A stretch of DNA of 64,000 nt from positions 4,049,001-4,113,000 of the forward strand of contig NZ_CP134772.1 of NCBI RefSeq assembly GCF_031882575.1, given 5' to 3'. A program made the position numbers and the translations under genes. Each line of letters begins with the position of its first letter. The stretch's first letter is position 1. This DNA comes from Pseudomonas sp. VD-NE ins. GTDB lineage: Bacteria; Pseudomonadota; Gammaproteobacteria; Pseudomonadales; Pseudomonadaceae. The notes beneath the pieces were generated by a model. It was not told the origin of the DNA and ran no database searches. It was given only the letters and a program-made list of their open reading frames with translations. This document shows, in pieces, positions 10,023 through 64,000 of the stretch.

Positions 10023-11102
10023 ATGACTCTGTTCTGGATCAGCCTTGCCGTGGGCGCGATCTTGCTCACCATCATCGCCCTCCTGCTGTGGCGCGAACGC
10101 AGTTTGCGCAGGCAGCTTGCGCAGTACCGCGATCTGCTGACACGGGCCGCCGAGGGCCGAAACCTTCAGCCGGACGGCGACGTCGAGCGTTTCAAACGCA
10201 GCCAGTACTTTGCGCGCATCGGCACATGGGACTGGGAAGTCGACACGGATCGGCTGTACTGGTCGGATGCGATTTACGGCATGTTCGGGTTCAAGATCGG
10301 CGAGATCACCCCGTCCTATGCGCTGTTCTGTTCCTGCGTCCATCCGGACGACCGCACCAGGGTGCGCGAAGGTGAACTGCGCTGTCTTGAAACCGGCGAA
10401 AACCACGATGAGGAATACCGCGTGGTCTGGCCCGACGGCACGATTCGCTGGCTGCGGGAAACCGGCAACGTGGTGCGCAACGACCATGACGCGGTGGTGA
10501 AAATGATGGGCGTGGTGCGCGACATCACCGAAGAAAAAGCCTCGGCCAGCTACCTGCAACACCTCGCTCACTTCGATCCGCTGACCGGCCTGCCCAATCG
10601 CCTGGTGCTGGAACAACGCTTGTCGGAAGCGCTGGTTCACGCGCGGCAGACCGAGACCCGCGTCGCACTGGTGTTCGTCGACCTCAACGGCTTCAAAACC
10701 ATCAACGACCGCTACGGCCATGCCGCCGGCGACCGGGTGCTGATCACCATGGCCACGCGGCTGAAACGCATCTTGCGAGCGACCGACACCGTCGCGCGCA
10801 TTGGCGGTGATGAGTTTGTCGTGATCCTGCAAGGCCTGGCGCCGAGCCTGAGTTTGCAGGACGAAGCCCGCAGCATCTGCCAGAAAATCTTCATCGAACT
10901 GTCGCCACCGATCAGCATCGGCAACGACCAGCGCCACATCGGCACCAGCCTTGGCGTGGCGGTGTTTCCGGATCATGCTACGGCTATGGATCGCTTGCTG
11001 CACATTGCCGATCTGGCGATGTATGAGGCCAAGCGCAGTGGCAACAATCAGTATCGGCTGGGTCACGCCTCAACCACACAATTGCAATGTCTTCGCACCT
11101 AA
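10023..11102 (+). CDS. Membrane-anchored PAS-GGDEF diguanylate cyclase
   Basis: 359 residues. One N-terminal membrane helix (FWISLAVGAILLTIIALLLW), a short coiled linker, a PAS domain of the PAS_3 type (about 65-170: IGTWDWEVDTDRLYW ... YRVVWPDGTIRWLRE ... VVRDITE), then a GGDEF domain (about 185-345). The active site GGDEF is intact (RIGGDEFVVIL) and the inhibitory I-site RATD lies exactly five residues upstream, so the enzyme should make cyclic-di-GMP from GTP and be product-inhibited. The PAS domain presumably senses a redox or small-molecule signal. No EAL domain. Confidence 0.92.
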   Translation: MTLFWISLAVGAILLTIIALLLWRERSLRRQLAQYRDLLTRAAEGRNLQPDGDVERFKRSQYFARIGTWDWEVDTDRLYWSDAIYGMFGFKIGEITPSYALFCSCVHPDDRTRVREGELRCLETGENHDEEYRVVWPDGTIRWLRETGNVVRNDHDAVVKMMGVVRDITEEKASASYLQHLAHFDPLTGLPNRLVLEQRLSEALVHARQTETRVALVFVDLNGFKTINDRYGHAAGDRVLITMATRLKRILRATDTVARIGGDEFVVILQGLAPSLSLQDEARSICQKIFIELSPPISIGNDQRHIGTSLGVAVFPDHATAMDRLLHIADLAMYEAKRSGNNQYRLGHASTTQLQCLRT

Positions 11103-11175
11103 CCCCCATGAATGAAAAATATTTCCATACTGAAATTACACGCACCGCTCTTCCACCTAATTAATACCACTTTAA

Positions 11176-11940
11176 TCAATTCAGACTTAACAATGCGATC
11201 TCATTTGAAATCCGATACTCCTCAGGAAATTTTGTCTGCACCAAGTCCTCAACACTCTTCAACGCCTGATCTATATCATTGTCATCGATAGACAAACCAC
11301 TAAGAATGGTTCTGGTTTTAACACCTATCACTCCATCAATGTCACCTATAACATAGCCACAACGAATGAGTGCTGCCTGAAGCTGAGCCTCACGTTGATG
11401 TTCACCAAACTTATCGACCTTACCTCCGCTCGCCAGAATTGCCGAAGCAGCTCCCGCCGTATAAGGTTTTTCAAAATTACTACCATTGCCAGCCTTATAA
11501 TAATCTATGACAACTTGATGACTGCCTCTGCATTCAAAATGCCATGACTCACTAATTTTGGTCTTTGGCTCGTCAATAATAGGGTTCAATCCATAAGCTG
11601 CTGCAACCTCCCAAAATTTCTGCAGAGAAACTTTCAAGTCAGATAAAGAGATATCCATGGCCCGCCCGGACTCATGAAAGCTACCGCCTGGAGCGGGGCT
11701 AAATGCGCTTTTATTCTTCTTGACATAGTCAAGATGGGCCTGCATTTGCATATCATAACTTCGATACAAATCTGACAAAACCAATCTGCCACCCAGTTTT
11801 TCTAGTTCATGCCCCACTCGGGTAATCGCCAACGCCATATCTGGACTTGCCGACGCAAGGCGCCGCGGCAAAGAAACAGCAATACCGTGTTTATTCTCGT
11901 AAATCGACGGAACATCGATTAACACCAACGGAGTTTTCAT
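11176..11940 (-). CDS. M15-family (VanY-like) peptidase with C-terminal peptidoglycan-binding domain
   Basis: 254 residues. The zinc site of D,D-carboxypeptidases/endopeptidases is present: His89 and Asp96 in SFHESGRAMD and WHFE at 133-136 with His134, preceded by SDLYRSYDMQ (the SxYR element). The C-terminal part (about 185-225: REAQLQAALIRCGYVIG-DIDGVIGVKTRTIL) looks like a PG_binding_1 domain. No signal peptide is visible, unlike the two genes upstream, so the product is either cytoplasmic until lysis, or exported in another way (as an effector or endolysin would be). Last gene of the AT-rich three-gene island, 23 bases after the lipoprotein gene. Confidence 0.8.
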   Translation of the reverse strand: MKTPLVLIDVPSIYENKHGIAVSLPRRLASASPDMALAITRVGHELEKLGGRLVLSDLYRSYDMQMQAHLDYVKKNKSAFSPAPGGSFHESGRAMDISLSDLKVSLQKFWEVAAAYGLNPIIDEPKTKISESWHFECRGSHQVVIDYYKAGNGSNFEKPYTAGAASAILASGGKVDKFGEHQREAQLQAALIRCGYVIGDIDGVIGVKTRTILSGLSIDDNDIDQALKSVEDLVQTKFPEEYRISNEIALLSLN

Positions 11941-11963
11941 GACTTAAGCCCCTGTAATTATCA

Positions 11964-12800
11964 TTATTTATCAGAAATTGACCTCCATTCAACTTTTGCA
12001 TTTTTCTCCACATCAATAGTCGGTGAAAACCAGGAGCCCGAAGACGCAAACCCTGTACTGCTGTATTTCGAAAGTTCCCCTGCAACATAAAAATCATCTA
12101 CAGACGTCAACGTCAGCTCTTCACTTTTCTCCCACTTAACATTTAACGCTGCTCCAAGATCACCATTAATAGGTTTTAATACGCCATCTTTCAATTTAGC
12201 ATTCAGGGCGGCTGCGGTTGCAGTATCGAATGAGAGTTTCGCTTTAAACCCTCTGACCAGTAACGCTCGATACATAACCAAGCGGCCGTCTTTATTTATA
12301 TCAAGTTTAATCGGAGAGGTATCTGGAAGAGCCATAATTTTCTGCTCAAATGGTCCTTCCAAAATAGTATCCCATCTCATCATTGATATTTTTACATCAA
12401 CATTTTTTGCTTTGCCAAGTTCACTCTTCACATCTACCGAAAACGGTGTCAAATCCGTAGTAAACGCTGCCGAGGCACTACCACTAAATTTTGTAACCGT
12501 TTTACCCTCGCAATCAAACTCCCGACCCGCCTTAATCCATGATGTGCTATCAGGAATCGATGTCGAGTCCCAGCGAACACGATATCCACCACCGTCCTGA
12601 CTATCCATCTTTCGCCAAACAGAACCTGGCCCTAATGCATTCGACGGCCCAAAGAACAGTGCTTTATCGGAATTAAGCTCGCTAAACGCACAATTCTTCG
12701 CAACATCTGTCCATGCTTCTTCCATATCATGACGACAACCAGTAATAAAAAAAACAATCGTCAAAGAAATGATTCCACGAAGAACAAACACGTTTCTCAT
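11964..12800 (-). CDS. Lipoprotein of unknown function
   Basis: 278 residues from ATG 12800, preceded by GGAGG eight bases upstream; the in-frame ATG 12815 was rejected because it overlaps that site. The N-terminus is a lipoprotein signal: hydrophobic IISLTIVFFITGC with lipobox Cys. Mature part without recognised domain, mixed alpha/beta, with one region suggestive of a beta sandwich (VDVKISMMRWDTILEGPF). Middle gene of the AT-rich island; starts 15 bases after the protease stop codon, so probably translated from the same mRNA as the protease and the M15 peptidase. Confidence 0.78.
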   Translation of the reverse strand: MRNVFVLRGIISLTIVFFITGCRHDMEEAWTDVAKNCAFSELNSDKALFFGPSNALGPGSVWRKMDSQDGGGYRVRWDSTSIPDSTSWIKAGREFDCEGKTVTKFSGSASAAFTTDLTPFSVDVKSELGKAKNVDVKISMMRWDTILEGPFEQKIMALPDTSPIKLDINKDGRLVMYRALLVRGFKAKLSFDTATAAALNAKLKDGVLKPINGDLGAALNVKWEKSEELTLTSVDDFYVAGELSKYSSTGFASSGSWFSPTIDVEKNAKVEWRSISDK

Positions 12801-12815
12801 AGCAGCCACCTCCAT

Positions 12816-14750
12816 TCATTTGAATAGTTTTTTTATATCAAGATTAAATCTCTCGCCTGACTCCATTCCGCCTACACGCGCTTGACGAAAGATATCCCTT
12901 AACTGGATACCTCTATCCGGGCCAGGCGGATCAAGTGTATTTAAATCGGTGTATGCCAATTTGGCGGCTAACAGCCAAGCGATTCTAGGAGCAGAAAAAC
13001 TGGTTCCACAAACGTCTTTACTCACAGTTCCGTCCATCGAAAACGCCAATGGATCCGTTCTTTTTGACCCGACGATGCTTGATCTACACTGCAAATAGCC
13101 ATCCCGGGTAGTATTCATCACCGCTATGACATCCTGCCCCTCCACGGATCGCGTTGCGAAGAGTTGTTCTTTAGCGGCAGCATTCTCAGCGCATTTACAT
13201 TCATCTTGTCCAGCAAGATAAGGCCGACACTTAGTGCAATCGTTCAAGGAACCGTTTCCCGCCGCTGACACCAGCACCCCTTGATTGAAGCTAAATGACG
13301 CGAACTTGCTCTGCAGCCTAGGAGTTGTCCAGGAAAAATTGACAACATACGGCACACCTGTAGCTTGAGAATATAAATCAACAAACAATAGAACAGACTC
13401 AATAACCGCCTTATCTGTTCTTAACTCGGGAATTCCAAAATCACTTTTCAGTCGACCGACAATATCCTTTGAAATTCTCTGTGCATTGCTAATATTTTCC
13501 TTCGGTACAGCATCCCCCCTACGGGTGAGCATTCCATCATCAAGTATCCGAAGAGCAATCAAGTCTTCCAAAACAGTTCGCGAGTTTTTTTGAGCGACTG
13601 ACAATGGGAGATAAACGACCTTTACCTTTTTGCCACTTGGCGATCCAGACTCCAAATCTACCAGCGCCTGTAACGACTGTTGAATATATAGCGAATGGAA
13701 CACGCTCTTGGGATAATCTGTTTCGAGTTGAGAAGAAAGCAACTCCTTCGTTTTTCCAATCGGATAACGAAATTTTTCATGAATTCTTTCAAAAGCGTCC
13801 GCAAAAAAAGCAATCGATTCGCGATAAGCCTCATTACTTGGCCATCCATCGTCCAGAATGATGAGAACTGACTGCTGAAATGCGGGAGTAGAAAACTTAT
13901 CTATTATGATTGCTTTTTCAGCAACTGAAACAAAATCAACAGGCACATTATCGCCAGGAGATGTGGAACCGGTATTGACAGTCAATATTTCCGATTGAGT
14001 TTCGTCTTTCTCCGACGGCAGTATTTTTCTGAGCCTTTGTTCATTAAATGACCGAGGCAACCAGACATACTGGAATACCAGTGGTGAGCCCTCACGCTCT
14101 CGCGATAAAACTATGGGGCGACTCTTGATTGCCATCGATTCAAAATTATACTCATTATTATAAATAACTTCCTGCAACCTTGGATAAACGCTAATCCTAG
14201 GGATCAGATTATTAGCATTATTCGGATTTGGTCTCTCCAAAGCAATTTTTGGAACAGCAGGAATCTTGATGGTACTGCCTGCCAATATCAACTTATCCTG
14301 AGCATCCAAACCATTTAATTGCACAATCTTTTTTTCAATTTCAGCATAAGCCTTTGACGCATTTTTCTGGCCAAATCCATACTCCCGAAAAACGACATTC
14401 GAAACACCATCATTTTTTTCAACTTTTACTTCACGAGCGAATCCCGCCTCAAGTGTTTCGCCAAGTGACAAGGATGGTCGCAACCTCACCCCTGACTGAT
14501 ACGGCTCCTTAATACCCTCCACCTCTTTAGGAGTACTTTTTGGTGTTTCAAAGTCATAGTAGCGCGTGTCGATAATCCGGCGGACCAAAACAAAGTCATC
14601 AGGCGAAACCTCATTAGCTTGCAAGTTCACGTCGGCACCAGCCGAGCAAAAACCTAACCCAATGAGAAAAACAGGAATCCCAAAAGAATATCGCGCCAAG
14701 ACTAATAGCAGAGAATGTTGTTGATAGGTCTCCACATCGGCGCGCTCCAT
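12816..14750 (-). CDS. Exported subtilisin-like (S8) serine protease with LysM-like N-terminal domain
   Basis: 644 residues. After a signal sequence (about 18-40) comes a LysM-like segment near 110-170 (VEKNDGVSNVVFREYG ... IVQLNGLDAQDKLILAG-STIKIP). The protease region has a plausible triad: Asp300 in ILDDGWPS, His352 in VFHSLYI, and Ser584 in CGTSFSAP, with the oxyanion Asn in VSAAGNGS. The 52-residue gap between Asp and His and the long stretch to the Ser exceed those of classical subtilases. Six Cys cluster in NDCTKCRPYLAGQDECKC and nearby, perhaps disulfides or a metal knot. First gene of an AT-rich operon with a lipoprotein and an M15 peptidase, pointing to cell-wall work. The triad assignment is by motif only. 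Confidence 0.8.
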   Translation of the reverse strand: MERADVETYQQHSLLLVLARYSFGIPVFLIGLGFCSAGADVNLQANEVSPDDFVLVRRIIDTRYYDFETPKSTPKEVEGIKEPYQSGVRLRPSLSLGETLEAGFAREVKVEKNDGVSNVVFREYGFGQKNASKAYAEIEKKIVQLNGLDAQDKLILAGSTIKIPAVPKIALERPNPNNANNLIPRISVYPRLQEVIYNNEYNFESMAIKSRPIVLSREREGSPLVFQYVWLPRSFNEQRLRKILPSEKDETQSEILTVNTGSTSPGDNVPVDFVSVAEKAIIIDKFSTPAFQQSVLIILDDGWPSNEAYRESIAFFADAFERIHEKFRYPIGKTKELLSSQLETDYPKSVFHSLYIQQSLQALVDLESGSPSGKKVKVVYLPLSVAQKNSRTVLEDLIALRILDDGMLTRRGDAVPKENISNAQRISKDIVGRLKSDFGIPELRTDKAVIESVLLFVDLYSQATGVPYVVNFSWTTPRLQSKFASFSFNQGVLVSAAGNGSLNDCTKCRPYLAGQDECKCAENAAAKEQLFATRSVEGQDVIAVMNTTRDGYLQCRSSIVGSKRTDPLAFSMDGTVSKDVCGTSFSAPRIAWLLAAKLAYTDLNTLDPPGPDRGIQLRDIFRQARVGGMESGERFNLDIKKLFK

Positions 14751-14814
14751 CGTGTTATAGGTCCTACTGAACCTTCACGCTAGCTGGGAGAATAAAAAAA
14801 TCAAGCGGGGCGCG

Positions 14815-14846
14815 AAAAAAATCGAGACAGTTTTGTAAACTGTCTC
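14815..14846 (-). terminator. Probable rho-independent terminator of the RcnB-like gene
   Basis: Perfect 10-bp inverted repeat GAGACAGTTT (14824-14833) / AAACTGTCTC (14837-14846), followed on the minus strand by a run of seven T. It lies about 110 bases after the RcnB-like stop and about 75 bases before the protease start, so it could also act as an operator for the island. Confidence 0.6.
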
Positions 14847-14955
14847 TTCAACATTACAGTCACGGAATTTTAGCTATTGTCTTAGTATGTAATTAGCTAT
14901 AAACACAATTCCAAAGTTACTCAAGTTTCGTTGACTGGCGTTTCCTCATACACAG

Positions 14956-15264: not shown

Positions 15265-15732
15265 CGGTGAACCTCCTGAATTGGGTAGTACCTCAACTCC
15301 GACTGCGTGGGGCGGGAATCATTCCTTTTTTGCCGGGGGTGGCCGCTTGAGGTCATTGGAATTCGGGGGTCCTGGAGACAAAAGCAAAATCAAGAGCCCC
15401 TCACCCTAGCCCTCTCCCGGAGGGAGAGGGGACTGACCGAGGTGTTTGGCAGAAGTGCGCCGACGTGCGATACCGAGTCGAATGCAAGTTTCAAAACCAA
15501 CCGAAATCGGCTCCCTCTCCCTCGGGAGAGGGCTGGGGTGAGGGCGAAACCATAAGCAGCCGTTACCGCAGCAATGGATTTGTACCAAAAAAACCATTGA
15601 TCCACTTTGCACATCAATCCATGCCAACAATGCAATTAACATCTCGTTACACCTGCGCCACCATCCGCCTCAATAAAAACCGTGCGCCGCCCTCCCGTCG
15701 CGCACGTCATAAAAGCGGTGGAGTACTTTTCT
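15265..15732. other. Intergenic region rich in dispersed repeats
   Basis: No gene seen in 468 bases. It holds a pair of inverted CCCTCTCCC-type repeats (15398-15545) and a 45-base segment (15541-15586) that recurs at 54128-54172, followed by the promoter region of the MFS transporter. Confidence 0.6.
15398..15545. repeat. Inverted pair of CCCTCACCC...CTCTCCCGGAGGGAGAGGG repeats
   Basis: Left unit at 15399-15435 (CCCTCACCCTAGCCCTCTCC then GGAGGGAGAGGG) and an inverted unit at 15511-15545 (CCCTCTCCCTCGGGAGAGGG then GGTGAGGG). Each is itself palindromic. This element is widely scattered between genes of fluorescent pseudomonads. Confidence 0.8.
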
Positions 15733-44326: not shown

Positions 44327-44440
44327 TTGGTGAACCATCATTGCGGTCGATGTTCACCATCACGGCAATGAAGTTCTCATAAAAAATCCACGGCGTAACA
44401 TCGGCTCCAGACAAACAACGACCCCTTGGAGCACACGATC

Positions 44441-44842
44441 ATGAAACGCCAGACCCTTCTCAGCATCGCTTTCTCGGTTTTCGCCATTAACGCTTTTGCC
44501 GCCACTCCGGCACACACCCAGCTCGCTGAAGGCGGCTCGGACAAGTTGATTGAAAGTCGTGTTGCTGAGGGTGGTTCTGATCGTCTGCTCGAACGCCGCG
44601 TTGCCGAAGGTGGCTCCGATCGCCTGCTCGAACGCCGCGTTGCCGAAGGTGGTTCTGATCGCCTGATTGAACGTCGCGTTGCCGAAGGCGGCTCCGATCG
44701 CCTGCTCGAACGCCGCGTTGCCGAAGGCGGTTCCGATCGTCTGATCGAACGCCGCGTTGCCGAAGGTGGTTCCGATCGCCTGCTCGAACGCCGCGTTGCC
44801 GAAGGTGGCTCCGATCGTCTGATCGAACGTCGCGTTGCCTAA
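44441..44842 (+). CDS. Exported protein made of eight tandem 13-residue repeats
   Basis: 133 residues from ATG 44441. Signal peptide (MKRQTLLSIAFSVFAINAFA, cleavage near 20-21), a short spacer, then eight units of AEGGSDRLLERRV starting at residue 29 (first unit AEGGSDKLIESRV) and running to the C-terminus. Units differ mainly by LL/LI. At the DNA level they are 39-base near-identical tandem repeats (44525-44836), so the copy number can change by recombination. I recall similar proteins in pseudomonads carried under the label phage infection protein, without evidence I could check. Followed by a strong terminator. Confidence 0.85.
   Translation: MKRQTLLSIAFSVFAINAFAATPAHTQLAEGGSDKLIESRVAEGGSDRLLERRVAEGGSDRLLERRVAEGGSDRLIERRVAEGGSDRLLERRVAEGGSDRLIERRVAEGGSDRLLERRVAEGGSDRLIERRVA
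44525..44836 (+). repeat. Eight tandem 39-bp repeats within a gene
   Basis: Each unit codes for 13 residues; units differ at a few positions, mostly silent (GGTGGT/GGCGGC) or LL/LI. In frame, so gain or loss of a unit keeps the reading frame. Confidence 0.9.
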
Positions 44843-44968: not shown

Positions 44969-46588
44969 TTATAAATTCGCTCGGGTTATACCGCGAAAAA
45001 TCTTCTCGATTTCCTGAATGGCGCTGGTTTGAGTGCGTTTGAAAATCTGTTTGAATTTCAGCCCCTCAGTCTCCTTCATATACTTCTTTGCCAGCTCCAC
45101 TTTGGTCAGTTTGGTGCCGATAGATACGGCTCCGTTCTTTTTCCTGACCAGGTATTTTTTAAAGGCGTCGGGCAAATAGCTTTCCATCGTATAGCCCCGA
45201 GTAATCCAGGTGCTGCTTTCATCCAGCTGATCAAGCACCTTGTACTTTGCCGAATCTTTCTTCGTACGGTGGGCGACATCACCGTCGAACTCAAAATCGT
45301 GGTCACGATCGATGACGACAAAAGAATTCCTGTTGATACGCAGCATCGAGATTGCCTCTTCTGTCTGCAGCTCTTCACCCGCGTGATAGTGGGACAATAT
45401 CGACCCGCCATAGAGCACGAACGAGTAATGCACATTCTCTACCAGTTCGGCTTCGGCATGCTCTCGACACCAGCGTTGCAACCAGTACTTTATGTACAGC
45501 CGATCCGACGGGCCTTCGACCCATATCACGAAATTTGACTGGTACAGATCACTTGCCCGCACGCCCAACTCGTCCAGCAGCTTTTGTGGCGAAACGGTGA
45601 CACGCGGCCCCTGCAAGCTATGGATATGGCGTCCGTCCACATGGAAGTGAGCGATCGAAACAGAGGCTGTTGCGTCAGCTGCGCCCCAGACATCAGGGCT
45701 GAGAAAAACCGAGGAATGCGAAGAAACCAGCAATTGCAGGTTCTTTTCCTTCGCCAATCGCGCCAGATTCATCGCCAACAAGCGCTGGAGTCGAGGGTGC
45801 AAATGAGACTCCGGCTCCTCAATGATGACAATAGAACCGTTTGCTTGTTCGCGGAGCCAGCCGAGCATGCCCGCGGCCGCTTTCCAGCCCGAAGGCAAAT
45901 ATTCAAACGGGACAGCTTGTGAAACCATCAGATCAGAATAAAGCTGCAACTTCACAACACCCGTTTCTTGCAGTTGTTGCGTCGTAGCCAGTTCCACGCG
46001 TTTGACCCCACACAACTCTGGCTGAATTTCACGCAAGGCGACAATGAACGCCGCATCGAAACAGGTTTGCTCGGGACCTCGCCAATAGGAAACGTTGATC
46101 CCCATCCTCGATACGATCTGACTGATTTTCTGTATATCGTTGGCCGCCACGCCCGTCGCCGGAATGCGCGCGTATATTTCATCCAGAATTTCTTCCGAAT
46201 GATCTGCCCGGTCGAAAACGCGCAATGCCAGGATCGGCGGCCGGGCCGGCTCGAACTCGACATGCAGGACCAACGGAGCAGGCGCGGGCGTGTAGCTCGA
46301 ATCATCGCCCTTGAAGGTAATATCCAGCCCATGAAAGACGCGTTCGCCAAACGCCGTTCGTTTAAGGGTTTGAAATAACTCTGGCCTGGACAATGCCCCT
46401 ACCACATCCAGAAGCGTTGACTTACCTGCACCGTTCCTGCCGCCAAACACATTGATTTGCTCAAGATCAGCGCGTTGCATGTCGTGAAAACCGGCGTCGG
46501 ATCCGTGAATATCTGCACCGACGCCTACGTAAAACGCCACACCTCTGAGAGCACTGAACTTGATTCTTTCTATATGCAAAGCAGCCAC
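44969..46588 (-). CDS. OLD-family ATPase with TOPRIM nuclease domain (solitary; possible phage defence)
   Basis: 539 residues. N-terminal SMC/ABC-type ATPase: Walker A GRNGAGKST at 50-58 and Walker B IVIIEEPESHLHP (about 250-262), with a QLLVSSHSSVFL switch region. The C-terminal TOPRIM-like part has FVIWVEGPSDRLYIKYW (Glu of the active site) and FVVIDRDHDFE (DxD). This is the layout of OLD nucleases and GajA; there is no UvrD-like GajB gene, reverse transcriptase, or other partner next to it, so it would be a class 1 (solitary) OLD protein. Such genes often protect against phages; P2 Old is the prototype. Base composition is lower in GC than its neighbours. Confidence 0.85.
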   Translation of the reverse strand: MAALHIERIKFSALRGVAFYVGVGADIHGSDAGFHDMQRADLEQINVFGGRNGAGKSTLLDVVGALSRPELFQTLKRTAFGERVFHGLDITFKGDDSSYTPAPAPLVLHVEFEPARPPILALRVFDRADHSEEILDEIYARIPATGVAANDIQKISQIVSRMGINVSYWRGPEQTCFDAAFIVALREIQPELCGVKRVELATTQQLQETGVVKLQLYSDLMVSQAVPFEYLPSGWKAAAGMLGWLREQANGSIVIIEEPESHLHPRLQRLLAMNLARLAKEKNLQLLVSSHSSVFLSPDVWGAADATASVSIAHFHVDGRHIHSLQGPRVTVSPQKLLDELGVRASDLYQSNFVIWVEGPSDRLYIKYWLQRWCREHAEAELVENVHYSFVLYGGSILSHYHAGEELQTEEAISMLRINRNSFVVIDRDHDFEFDGDVAHRTKKDSAKYKVLDQLDESSTWITRGYTMESYLPDAFKKYLVRKKNGAVSIGTKLTKVELAKKYMKETEGLKFKQIFKRTQTSAIQEIEKIFRGITRANL

Positions 46589-61540: not shown

Positions 61541-62127
61541 CAGGTAAACACGTTATTCATCGCCGCATACTGCAACAGCATGATGGTCTTGGCATCGCAG
61601 ATCTCACCGCGCTGAAACGCCGCCAACGCGTCGTCGAATCGCCACTCCAGCACTTCGAGTTCTTCGGTCTCCTCTTCCAGACCGCCACCGTCGCTGACCT
61701 TCGATGCGGCGTCGTATTCGGCAATGAAAAAATGCAGCTTCTCGGTCACCGAGCCGGGGCTCATGTAAGCCTCGAATACCTTCTTCACATCGTGCACGCG
61801 ATAACCGGTTTCCTCCTCGGCTTCATCGCGAATCCGTTGCTCTGGTGCAGCACCTTCGAGCAGCCCGGCCGCCACTTCGATCAGCAAACCATCATGGCCA
61901 TTGACGAACACCGGCAAGCGGAACTGCCGGGTCAGCACCACCGTGCGCTGTTCGCGGTTGAACAGCAGAATCGCTGCGCCGTTACCGCGGTCGTAGACCT
62001 CACGGGTCTGACGCTGCCACTCGCCGTTGTTGCGGTGATAGTCGAAGGTGATTTTCTTCAGTAGATACCAGTCATGGGACAACACCTGAGTGTCGACAAT
62101 ATTGACCCGCTCGGCTGTGTTGGACAT
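61540..62127 (-). CDS. NUDIX hydrolase (ADP-ribose/GDP-mannose pyrophosphatase-like, NudK type)
   Basis: 195 residues. NUDIX helix at about 87-109: AGLLEGAAPEQRIRDEAEEETGY, with the metal-binding EAEEETGY core. The N-terminal part (DWYLLKKITFDYHRNNGEWQRQTREVYDRGNGAAILLFN) matches the NudK group, which cleaves nucleoside diphosphate sugars. Length and the SPGSVTEKLHFFIAEYD segment (catalytic loop) agree. Single gene on the minus strand. Confidence 0.87.
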   Translation of the reverse strand: MSNTAERVNIVDTQVLSHDWYLLKKITFDYHRNNGEWQRQTREVYDRGNGAAILLFNREQRTVVLTRQFRLPVFVNGHDGLLIEVAAGLLEGAAPEQRIRDEAEEETGYRVHDVKKVFEAYMSPGSVTEKLHFFIAEYDAASKVSDGGGLEEETEELEVLEWRFDDALAAFQRGEICDAKTIMLLQYAAMNNVFT

Positions 62128-62323
62128 GACGCTTGATCCTTTTCATTGAAGGCCCCTGGGTAGGTAAAAGCCCTTTTTTGTGAACGAAAAAACGAAACCC
62201 TATACCGCCCTACAAACCATGTCGAAACATCCTACAGATATCGCCTACTCGCCCGACTTCTTTCCTGATTGATCCCCCGCAAAGTCCGCGCACCTTTTTC
62301 TTCACGTGCGCGAGTGCCTGCCC

Positions 62324-62647
62324 ATGTTTCAACCCGATCGGCTTCTGGCTCTGAACAACAGCATCGGCCTGCTCGTTGTTGCTGCTTTGAATCCCGACGA
62401 GCCGGACTTCGAACACCTGATCCGCGAGTTCCGCCTGTGCCTGAACAACTACGACGCCTGGGCCGAGCAGTTCTGGACGGGGACTGCACTGGATGTACGA
62501 TGTCAGCTATCCCATAGACGTAGCAGAACATCAGGGCACCTTCTATATTCTAGATGGACATCACCGTGCAGCAGCTGCAAGACAAACAGCAACGCCAATA
62601 ACTATAAATTTGATCACGAACATCAGAGAGCACAAAGGACAACTTAA
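62324..62647 (+). CDS. Small unidentified ORF, probably truncated by the adjacent toxin fragment
   Basis: 107 codons from ATG 62324. The first 55 residues look like a real protein (MFQPDRLLALNNSIGLLVVA, then ALNPDEPDFEHLIREFRLCLNNYDAWAEQFW), high in GC. After about 62480 the frame runs through low-GC DNA that belongs to the toxin fragment in another frame, and the residues become odd (RSRTSGHLLYSRW). The original gene was probably longer or of different end, and was cut off by a recombination event. No family recognised. Confidence 0.45.
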   Translation: MFQPDRLLALNNSIGLLVVAALNPDEPDFEHLIREFRLCLNNYDAWAEQFWTGTALDVRCQLSHRRSRTSGHLLYSRWTSPCSSCKTNSNANNYKFDHEHQRAQRTT

Positions 62648-62720
62648 TACGATCGAAGAAGTCATTGAATCAGCTAACAATGTCGGACACGACCGATTGG
62701 AGCATCACAGACGAAGATGA
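62493..62720 (+). CDS. ParB-like nuclease-type toxin C-terminal fragment
   Basis: 75 residues starting MYDVSYPIDVAEHQGTFYIL and continuing DGHHRAAAARQTATPITINL. The segment GTFYILDGHHRAAAA matches the ParB/Srx-like fold found in C-terminal toxin domains of polymorphic toxins (Rhs, CdiA and similar). Far too short for a full toxin protein, and the frame is closed by a stop at 62442, so this is a detached C-terminal module. Its last codons overlap the ATG of the next gene (62717), as toxin and immunity genes often do. Distinctly AT-rich. Confidence 0.55.
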   Translation: MYDVSYPIDVAEHQGTFYILDGHHRAAAARQTATPITINLITNIREHKGQLNTIEEVIESANNVGHDRLEHHRRR

Positions 62721-63136
62721 AAACAGCCGATAAAAATCTTGAGGACCTAATAACCGACTTTCTTTCAAAAGTTGAGAGTGGAACAGAGTTACTACAAAAA
62801 AAATTTGGCACTCGGAATATTTTAAGACTCTGGCGGAGCAAGCAAATCGAACGCTGCGGTGAAATAACTGATGAAATTCAATATGAACTGCACGGCGTAG
62901 GGTGTGCCATTCATTTCCCATCAGAATCAGTGGACTTCGATTACGGTTCGAACAGCAGAATCGACGGCTTTGACGTATGGCGCCTTTACATTTACGCTTC
63001 GGACAGGCCGCTTATATATGAAAAATACTGCGACAAGAAAACACTCGAAAAAGAATTCAAAGAGCTTATCTCTTTAAACAGAATCGAAAAAATGTCGATC
63101 AATGACAATCTTTATGTCCTGGTTAAAACCGAATAA
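62717..63136 (+). CDS. DUF6896-like presumed immunity protein
   Basis: 139 residues. YELHGVGCAIHFPSESVDFDYGSNSRIDGFDVWRLYIYA is the pattern I associate with DUF6896, a family found as immunity proteins next to polymorphic toxins. It overlaps the ParB-like toxin fragment by four bases and is AT-rich like it, so both came together. Acidic and soluble. Assignment to the family is from memory of the pattern; function as immunity is inference from the neighbour. Confidence 0.6.
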   Translation: MKTADKNLEDLITDFLSKVESGTELLQKKFGTRNILRLWRSKQIERCGEITDEIQYELHGVGCAIHFPSESVDFDYGSNSRIDGFDVWRLYIYASDRPLIYEKYCDKKTLEKEFKELISLNRIEKMSINDNLYVLVKTE

Positions 63137-63168
63137 AAACATACCCACACGCATTCCAAACCGACAAA

Positions 63169-63199
63169 GAAGCCCGGCAGCGCTACCGGGCTTCTTTAT
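63169..63199. terminator. Rho-independent terminator shared by convergent genes
   Basis: GAAGCCCGG - CAGCGCTA - CCGGGCTTC, then TTTATTT on the plus strand. Lies 33 bases after the immunity gene and just past the chitinase stop on the minus strand. Confidence 0.8.
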
Positions 63200-63205
63200 T
63201 TGCAA

Positions 63206-64000
63206 CTAACGAGCGTTGAGCGACAGCCTGTCATCGGATAACGACTCGGCGGAACCCACCCCGTGAATCAACGGCCCATAACGCCGACTGAACTCCCAGT
63301 TGTACGGCAAGCCATCCTTGCTGCTGCCGTTGTCCCAATTCACCGACCAGGTCATCAAGCCTTTGATCGGCAGCCCTTTGATCGCCAGACGCTTGAGGAC
63401 ATTCCCGACCACGGTTTTGTCGATCACATAACCGGTGGCAGCCGCATCGTTATTGGCCGGCAGGCCGATGACAAACTTGTCCGCCGGGATCCGCGTGAAG
63501 CCGCGAGTGCCGGTCACCAGACTTTCGGTCAGGTAATAAAGGAAATCCTCCTTCAGCGCATCGTTGTTCTGCGCAATCCACGCACCCGCGCCGTTGTTGG
63601 CTTCCGGTACCCAGACCCCATCGCCGCCCTGGTTGTAGAACTGCGGAGCAACGAAGTCGTAGTAGCCTTCCAGCGCCTGCAAGTAGCTCACGTATTTACC
63701 AGTGCTGGTCAGGTACGGAAACTCCGGGGCCATGCTGATGATGAAGTGCTTGCCCTGGCCTGCGTAGTGATCCTTGACCAGTTTCAGCGCGGCCGGCAGG
63801 ACGGTCTTGTTGGCAGCGAAGTCAATCGCGCTCTGTTCAAGATCGATGTCCAGGCCGTCGAAGCCGTAGGTTTCCACCAGACGGATGATTTCATTGGCCA
63901 GCGGTTGTTCCTGACCGCTGCGCAACTCGATGTGCGCATCAGCGCCACCGAGGGAAATCAACACGGCCCGCCCTTGGCTGTTGAGCACGCCGACCTGACG
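63206..64000 (-). CDS. Glycoside hydrolase family 18 chitinase, N-terminus cut by window edge
   Basis: 265 codons visible on the minus strand; the gene continues to the right. GH18 landmarks: AVLISLGGAD (SxGG substrate strand), the catalytic DGLDIDLE (DxxDxDxE, with the proton-donor Glu), VAPQFYNQ for the substrate-assisted Tyr, and MTWSVNWD near the C-terminus. Ends soon after the barrel with SLNAR, so no C-terminal chitin-binding domain. Similar to ChiC/ChiD-like enzymes of pseudomonads. Hydrolyses chitin; secretion cannot be judged without the N-terminus. Confidence 0.92.
   Translation of the reverse strand, partial: RQVGVLNSQGRAVLISLGGADAHIELRSGQEQPLANEIIRLVETYGFDGLDIDLEQSAIDFAANKTVLPAALKLVKDHYAGQGKHFIISMAPEFPYLTSTGKYVSYLQALEGYYDFVAPQFYNQGGDGVWVPEANNGAGAWIAQNNDALKEDFLYYLTESLVTGTRGFTRIPADKFVIGLPANNDAAATGYVIDKTVVGNVLKRLAIKGLPIKGLMTWSVNWDNGSSKDGLPYNWEFSRRYGPLIHGVGSAESLSDDRLSLNAR

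Follow-up and report, generated by a model that had tools for sequence, protein, structure and literature searches.

A protease and lipoprotein gene pair shared by an acquired insert of Pseudomonas sp. VD-NE ins and a P2-family prophage: a candidate mobile module of the cell envelope

Periplasmic serine proteases that work with an outer membrane lipoprotein and are linked to peptidoglycan hydrolases are described in Pseudomonas aeruginosa (CtpA with LbcA) and Escherichia coli (Prc with NlpI) in the available part of PMC6050968. According to the same text, LbcA recruits periplasmic CtpA to the outer membrane and is needed for its activity, and the protease degrades four wall hydrolases. Here we describe a 64,000-nucleotide stretch (the window; contig NZ_CP134772.1, positions 4,049,001 to 4,113,000) of Pseudomonas sp. 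VD-NE ins, in which an AT-rich insert holds genes for a predicted exported subtilase-like protease (P0001), a lipoprotein (P0002) and an M15 peptidase (P0003). For the first two, CtpA-LbcA would be the nearest functional parallel, in layout only. CtpA and Prc are carboxy-terminal processing proteases while the window protease is subtilase-like, and LbcA and NlpI carry TPR motifs while the window lipoprotein matches no family above cut-off; neither an S41 nor a TPR family was among the Pfam matches up to E 1 for the window or its three related loci. Mobile cargo status is not described for either known system in the available part of PMC6050968, whereas one copy of the pair reported here is carried in a prophage.

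The protease gene is followed by the lipoprotein gene on the same strand in all four loci found, with gaps of 15, 17, 19 and 16 bases. These loci are the window, Pseudomonas sp. BMS12 (G147), a genome of another family in the same order (G453) and one of another genus in the same family (G1486). The two genes form a conserved unit. Profile scores of the homologues range from 119.6 to 173.7 bits (the listed shuffled copies reached no more than 11.1), with E-values of 8.7e-34 (P0015), 2.6e-50 (P0008), 4.5e-36 (P0014) and 1.8e-45 (P0007). The window and BMS12 copies are 54% identical in the protease and 53% in the lipoprotein; the other pairs share 25-28% and 22-31%, respectively. Differences between window and BMS12 at codon positions 1, 2 and 3 were 0.37, 0.27 and 0.65 for the protease and 0.37, 0.23 and 0.64 for the lipoprotein, indicating that both core genes are protein-coding under constraint. 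A first-pass annotation of the window had grouped all three genes as one module and proposed conserved adjacency as the check. Adjacency was kept for the protease and lipoprotein in four of four loci but not for the M15 gene; the other three loci have an unrelated wall enzyme in its stead or none. We therefore rejected a fixed three-gene unit, as the M15 gene is replaced or absent in three of the four loci.

In samples that overlap and that count the window's own genome where it was drawn, protease searches matched 1 of 1 genome (its own), 2 of 298 in the genus (single sequence), 2 of 137 in the family, 2 of 390 in the order (two-sequence profile), 1 of 140 in the family of G453 (G453 itself) and 1 of 398 in the phylum (its own). 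The lipoprotein was found in 1 of 274 genomes of the class, again its own, with a two-sequence profile that may miss distant copies. Around G453 the lipoprotein search matched 2 of 124 genomes, G453 and G714; the G714 match (E 0.004, 64 residues) was rejected, as its neighbours are, by eye, ordinary metabolic genes. A scan of genome contigs with two N-terminal peptide patterns only, and so of low sensitivity, found one locus, that of BMS12. Among the matches listed in the open-licence literature, which was also searched for strain BMS12, none described the pair.

Core gene 1 (12816..14750, minus strand; 644 amino acids (aa)) encodes P0001, assigned from its open reading frame, S8 profile, invariant residues and hydrophobic N-terminus. 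The Peptidase_S8 profile scores it at 14.3 bits (E 0.026), below the Pfam cut-off of 21.8; the BMS12 protease passes with 22.6 bits while those of G453 (15.4) and G1486 (18.9) fall short, so one of the four homologues passes. D300, H352, N499 and S584 are invariant in all four aligned proteases at identities down to 25%, so the Asp-His-Ser triad and the oxyanion Asn of the Subtilase family (S8) are present at conserved positions in each; the sequence contexts are LDDGW, H352, AAGN and CGTSFSAPR. C555 and C581 are likewise invariant in the four. The catalytic region spans approximately residues 290-600 (12951..13883, minus strand; extent by eye). These features support the view that the window protease is a divergent subtilase-like protein with an active site predicted from sequence. 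It shares the Asp, His, Asn and Ser positions with subtilases but differs in having no GHGTH-type His motif, in an N-terminal region some 290 residues long that includes a LysM-like segment, in the two invariant cysteines, and in that three of the four homologues score below the Pfam cut-off. Sequence matches in the PDB up to E 1 included no subtilase, and PHROGs listed nothing for P0001.

The LysM-like segment lies at approximately residues 106-166 (14253..14435, minus strand; extent by eye). The LysM profile stays below its cut-off of 20.9 bits in the window (13.8 bits, E 0.056), BMS12 (15.7, E 0.014) and G453 (15.8, E 0.014), the match in G453 spanning the whole length of the model; LysM is not listed among the Pfam matches of the G1486 protease. 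A hydrophobic N-terminus is present in all four proteases, the start of the G1486 protein being uncertain.

Core gene 2 (11964..12800, minus strand; 278 aa) encodes the lipoprotein P0002, recognized from its open reading frame and a lipobox, ITGC, followed by RHD. The pattern scan found a lipobox in all four lipoproteins, and Cys22 of the lipobox, Cys37 and Cys97 are invariant among them. No family passes its cut-off for P0002 in Pfam or NCBIfam and none is listed in PADLOC. Below cut-off there are only DUF1155 in Pfam (E 0.02), two PHROGs of unknown function (E 0.14 or worse) and a weak PDB match (E 0.49). Export was called throughout with a simple hydropathy scan and a lipobox pattern rather than a dedicated predictor; the calls agree with the export signals that the first-pass annotation placed on the protease and lipoprotein and with its finding of none on the M15 protein.

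The three genes lie at 14750-12816, 12800-11964 and 11940-11176 on the minus strand, separated by 15 and 23 bases, so that their initial description as co-directional and nearly touching is borne out by the coordinates. So is their lower guanine-plus-cytosine (GC) content, which is 0.433 for 11103-14955 and 0.598 in the remaining window; in 3853-base windows outside the insert it averages 0.600 (standard deviation 0.013, minimum 0.549). The segment was acquired between a GGDEF gene and an RcnB-domain gene (11063..14955, no strand assigned), and it is missing where related genomes retain the same flanks. Matches to the two flanking genes end 43 bases apart in G005, compared with 3893 bases between the same ends in the window. 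In G011 they end 622 bases apart, compared with 3912 in the window, with different content between them that includes a 154-aa frame without a Pfam match. The insert has no blastn match in either genome. Among the five relatives fetched for this comparison, G020 keeps the GGDEF match but lacks both the RcnB match and any match to the insert, while G023 and G024 keep only the GGDEF match and are uninformative on the site. No protease match was found in G005, G011 or G020 in the genus search.

The other loci are AT-rich as well, with a GC content of 0.476 versus 0.660 in BMS12, 0.453 versus 0.555 in G453, and 0.463 beside a portal gene of 0.647 in G1486. Upstream of the protease gene in BMS12 comes a single 189-aa frame and then, about 1.1 kb away, the end of a phage-type integrase gene. 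The G1486 locus lies in a prophage of 39,147 bases whose ends are a perfect 31-bp repeat, one copy of it at a tRNA-Ser gene, and which encodes terminase, scaffold, major head, sheath, tape measure, baseplate, holin, primase and integrase. Its portal protein matched 333 phage records, the best among Pseudomonas phages at about 78%. The element is a citexvirus-like (P2-family) prophage carrying one copy of the pair. This carriage, which the first-pass annotation had not considered, is the strongest contextual clue found.

Within the prophage, the opposite-strand portal gene is followed downstream, after 242 bases, by the end of the lipoprotein gene, and an anti-repressor gene lies on the far side. 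Three sister phages were compared, Dobby and Sirocco (both Citexvirus) and OQ658368 (genus not given). The stretch downstream of the portal gene is low in GC (0.46-0.48) in each of them. It is the same in Dobby and OQ658368, Sirocco shares only its last 743 bases with both, and the G1486 stretch has no match to any of the three at E 1e-5. The portal genes, unlike this content, are 78-95% identical between the three types. The portal-adjacent segment therefore looks like an accessory slot with variable content. In the available part of PMC9122126, the gpA-gpQ region beside the portal gene of E. coli P2-like phages is an anti-phage hotspot. The G1486 copy resembles such P2-family slots (the old/tin hotspot; portal-adjacent in citexviruses) in lying directly downstream of the portal gene, in its low GC and in its variability between sisters. 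It differs in that the replication gene of G1486 does not lie across the slot and in that any anti-phage role of the pair is putative. This accessory (moron) position is seen for the G1486 copy only, one of the four loci; the window copy lies outside a recognizable prophage.

Two further features of the G1486 region were noted by eye. Beside the prophage (L039:14489-15706), one frame has a GacA/UvrY-like start and a UvrC-like continuation, which may be a deletion fusion or an assembly artefact. By the prophage tail genes (L040:4255-5054) lies a HigA/HigB-like toxin-antitoxin pair, whose first frame matches a PHROG regulator, in what is apparently a second accessory slot.

The M15 gene (11176..11940, minus strand; 254 aa) lies 23 bases downstream of the lipoprotein gene. 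P0003 passes the Pfam cut-off for VanY (27.4 versus 25 bits) and carries SFHESGRAMD at residue 87 and ESWH at 131. M15 zinc peptidases are marked by the motifs SxHxxGxAxD and ExWH. Its C-terminal PG_binding_1-like segment is partial (residues 186-210) and below cut-off (15.7 versus 23 bits, E 0.017). Of the domains first named for these proteins, M15 was therefore upheld by profile search, whereas S8, LysM and PG_binding_1 remain below cut-off in the window proteins. In NCBIfam, HxsA matches the PG-binding-like residues 185-217 (E 7.7e-4) far below its cut-off and LdcB is listed at E 0.012; in the PDB the closest matches come from the D-Ala-D-Ala carboxypeptidase family and from LdcB proteins (E 0.016-0.04). 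P0003 is the sole VanY match at E 0.01 in its own 6.7-Mb genome. It was unmatched in 198 Pseudomonas genomes at E 0.001, a sample that held no known-positive genome and so shows little. The hydropathy scan and lipobox pattern found neither an N-terminal hydrophobic segment nor a lipobox.

Other wall enzymes adjoin the pair elsewhere. In BMS12 an Amidase_2 protein (E 1.4e-22) is encoded on the opposite strand 138 bases away, and in G453 a YkuD-family protein (E 5.9e-15) is encoded 9 bases upstream in the same direction, its gene preceded by that of a possible nuclease (Exo_endo_phos2, below cut-off). The amidase is without an N-terminal hydrophobic segment, while the YkuD protein has one. No wall enzyme adjoins the pair in G1486. 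A wall enzyme is thus the adjacent gene in three of the four loci, in keeping with the cell wall link proposed at the outset, and lies in the same apparent operon as the pair in two of them. As the host genome has 1 VanY and 4 YkuD matches, such neighbours are not common by chance; no probability is attached to the adjacency, which rests on four loci and on families chosen afterwards. The wall enzyme, and with it the accessory M15 gene, is an exchangeable partner and an optional extra to the pair.

Two genes with the same low GC flank the G453 module, one nuclease-like (Exo_endo_phos2; L008:7528-8511) and one for an SprT-like protein whose N-terminus, by eye, resembles a lipobox (L008:11857-12510). 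Both fall below Pfam cut-offs, and they may be part of one island with the module. Near the BMS12 module, a short frame (L003:19437-19799) has a weak PADLOC match (E 0.013) to the candidate family PDC-S31.

Given the above, the pair probably serves as a mobile weapon or shield in the envelope. The reading that we favour, with a probability of roughly 0.38, is a two-gene mobile module in which a periplasmic protease and its lipoprotein partner, carried as prophage or island cargo, would cut envelope proteins and possibly exclude phages. Under this scenario the divergent subtilase-type protease would be exported and probably held near the peptidoglycan by its LysM-like segment, and the lipoprotein would most likely bind it at the outer membrane and help to hold or activate it. 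The complex might then cleave envelope proteins or incoming proteins in the periplasm. As accessory (moron) cargo of prophages and islands, the module would most likely benefit the lysogen or island carrier. Given its carriage in a prophage slot and in islands, the leading candidate function is to keep other phages out at the envelope. Complex formation, protease activity, substrate and phage exclusion are all features that we infer. Under the favoured reading, the M15 peptidase is apparently cytoplasmic and might reach the wall only after a breach of the inner membrane, such as one made by a phage holin. A more specific version is rather unlikely in its full form. In it, a subtilase associated with peptidoglycan and its lipoprotein partner, placed in the periplasm by the lysogen or island carrier, would cleave proteins that rival phages use for injection or lysis, and some variants would add, as a second arm, a cytoplasmic wall hydrolase released on holin opening.

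The anti-phage systems known so far work mostly inside the cytoplasm. If the favoured reading is true, a mobile periplasmic protease with a lipoprotein, carried once in a prophage slot, would offer a case in which defence by protein cutting, or lysogenic conversion, can be tested in the envelope. Should its role not be defence, the locus still adds a conserved protease-lipoprotein pair that does not belong to the carboxy-terminal processing proteases, that has an exchangeable wall enzyme and whose lipoprotein passes no family cut-off in the libraries searched.

Several observations weigh against the favoured reading. A recognizable prophage is present at one of the four loci and an integrase nearby at one more, and no mobility gene was recognized at the G453 locus, whose frames were only partly profile-scanned, or among the listed frames of the window insert. 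The viral contig scans and the searches made of phages and plasmids turned up no homologue for the protease or the lipoprotein. Plasmid protein searches with P0001, P0002, P0003, P0007, P0008 and P0014 gave no match, nor did phage protein searches with P0001, P0003, P0014 and P0015; P0010 had one partial match in phages, an amidase of a Rhodobacteraceae phage. The primase and integrase of G1486 are at the far end of the prophage, so its slot is not the E. coli gpA-gpQ interval, and the words protease, subtilisin, lipoprotein and periplasm are absent from the main text of PMC9122126 as available. Genes for virulence or fitness may likewise occupy accessory slots, and the protease could be secreted outside the cell. 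Protease activity and anti-phage action are predictions. Among defence systems, PADLOC gives P0001 only a short match to IetS (31 residues, E 0.006). Such matches, 22-31 residues long, lie at the active-site serine motif in the window and G453 proteases (P0007, E 0.0028) and are lacking in that of BMS12 (P0005); P0014 was outside the PADLOC scan. Unlike in IetAS, the protease here is predicted to be exported, and no IetA-type ATPase was among the frames of the window insert. We rejected IetAS on these grounds, namely the brevity of the matches, their lack in P0005 and the lack of a recognized ATPase partner.

The wall enzymes invite a different explanation, already raised in the first-pass annotation as protease-regulated peptidoglycan remodelling, in which the lipoprotein would present a neighbouring peptidoglycan enzyme to the protease for degradation or activation, as in CtpA-LbcA. 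That an M15, Amidase_2 or YkuD gene is next to the pair in three of four loci, with one apparent operon in two, argues for it, as do the below-cut-off LysM-like segment and the degradation of four peptidoglycan hydrolases by the P. aeruginosa system (PMC6050968, in the part available). Yet the M15 protein and the amidase lack an export signal and would not normally meet the protease. The three enzymes come from three families, the amidase gene of BMS12 runs opposite to the pair, and in the prophage no wall enzyme adjoins it. That the pair controls a dedicated wall enzyme is therefore possible but doubtful. The serious rival of lysogenic conversion, in which the pair serves host or niche fitness, for example as a nutrient protease or in predation resistance, and has nothing to do with phages, we regard as somewhat unlikely. 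Such slots can be home to genes for fitness or virulence, a conversion gene is present in phiCTX, a phage of the same genus, and the N-terminus is of an export type; the conserved lipoprotein partner and the LysM-like segment point instead to retention in the envelope, and no autotransporter domain was among the Pfam matches of the proteases.

Both remaining alternatives start from the M15 gene. Were the insert a decaying prophage fragment, P0003 would be what remains of an endolysin or tail hydrolase, and its two neighbours would be morons without present function. Like phage M15 endolysins, P0003 combines an M15 domain with a PG-binding-like segment and no signal; in PHROGs a tail tape-measure family matches it over the M15 region (E 2.1e-4) and an endolysin family gives a weak match (E 0.13), and another copy of the pair sits in the G1486 prophage. 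However, the insert has no further minus-strand frame of at least 80 aa and so no structural gene, no holin or spanin was recognized beside P0003, and a tblastn search of 50,697 phage records gave it no match at E 0.001; the G1486 prophage carries a holin of its own at another position, all three window frames are intact, and the core genes are constrained between window and BMS12. Decay is on balance improbable. Still less probable is an interbacterial competition module, with the M15 protein as a secretion-delivered wall effector and the lipoprotein as its periplasmic immunity protein. A signal-less M15 protein beside an exported lipoprotein has the usual effector-immunity layout, but an immunity protein should follow its effector, whereas this lipoprotein stays with the protease whatever the wall enzyme and is present without one. 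Nor was a secretion-system gene recognized by eye among the frames around the insert, although no profile search for one was made. The initial suggestion of a lytic or competition module found no direct support.

On the minus strand the insert has no further frame of at least 80 aa beyond the three genes, and no tRNA gene was found in the window. Upstream of the operon, a terminator-like hairpin (14824..14846, minus strand) has a perfect 10-bp stem, a 3-base loop and then a T run. It is a weak candidate; terminator-like sites in the region number 3, compared with 4.1 expected from shuffles. No counterpart with arms of at least 8 bases was found in the 520 bases before the BMS12 protease gene or the 350 before the G453 YkuD gene. 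Promoter-like sites (9 found, 6.6 expected, standard deviation 2.7) and repeats inside the insert were uninformative, and Rfam gave 0 matches up to E 0.1. Near the insert, at 15398-15550, lies an inverted pair of CTCTCCC-rich repeats that by eye resemble short dispersed Pseudomonas repeats.

Elsewhere in the window, a 539-aa protein (44969-46588, minus strand), encoded in a stretch of lower GC (0.52-0.55), resembles by eye an OLD-type AAA-ATPase with a TOPRIM-like C-terminus; its gene is a possible stand-alone defence gene. A small exported-looking protein encoded at 44426-44842 (plus strand) has many near-identical repeats of the type VAEGGSDRLIERR. A second AT-rich stretch (62001-63500, GC 0.47-0.49) holds a 139-aa orphan frame (62717-63136, plus strand) beside a gene that is chitinase-like by eye.

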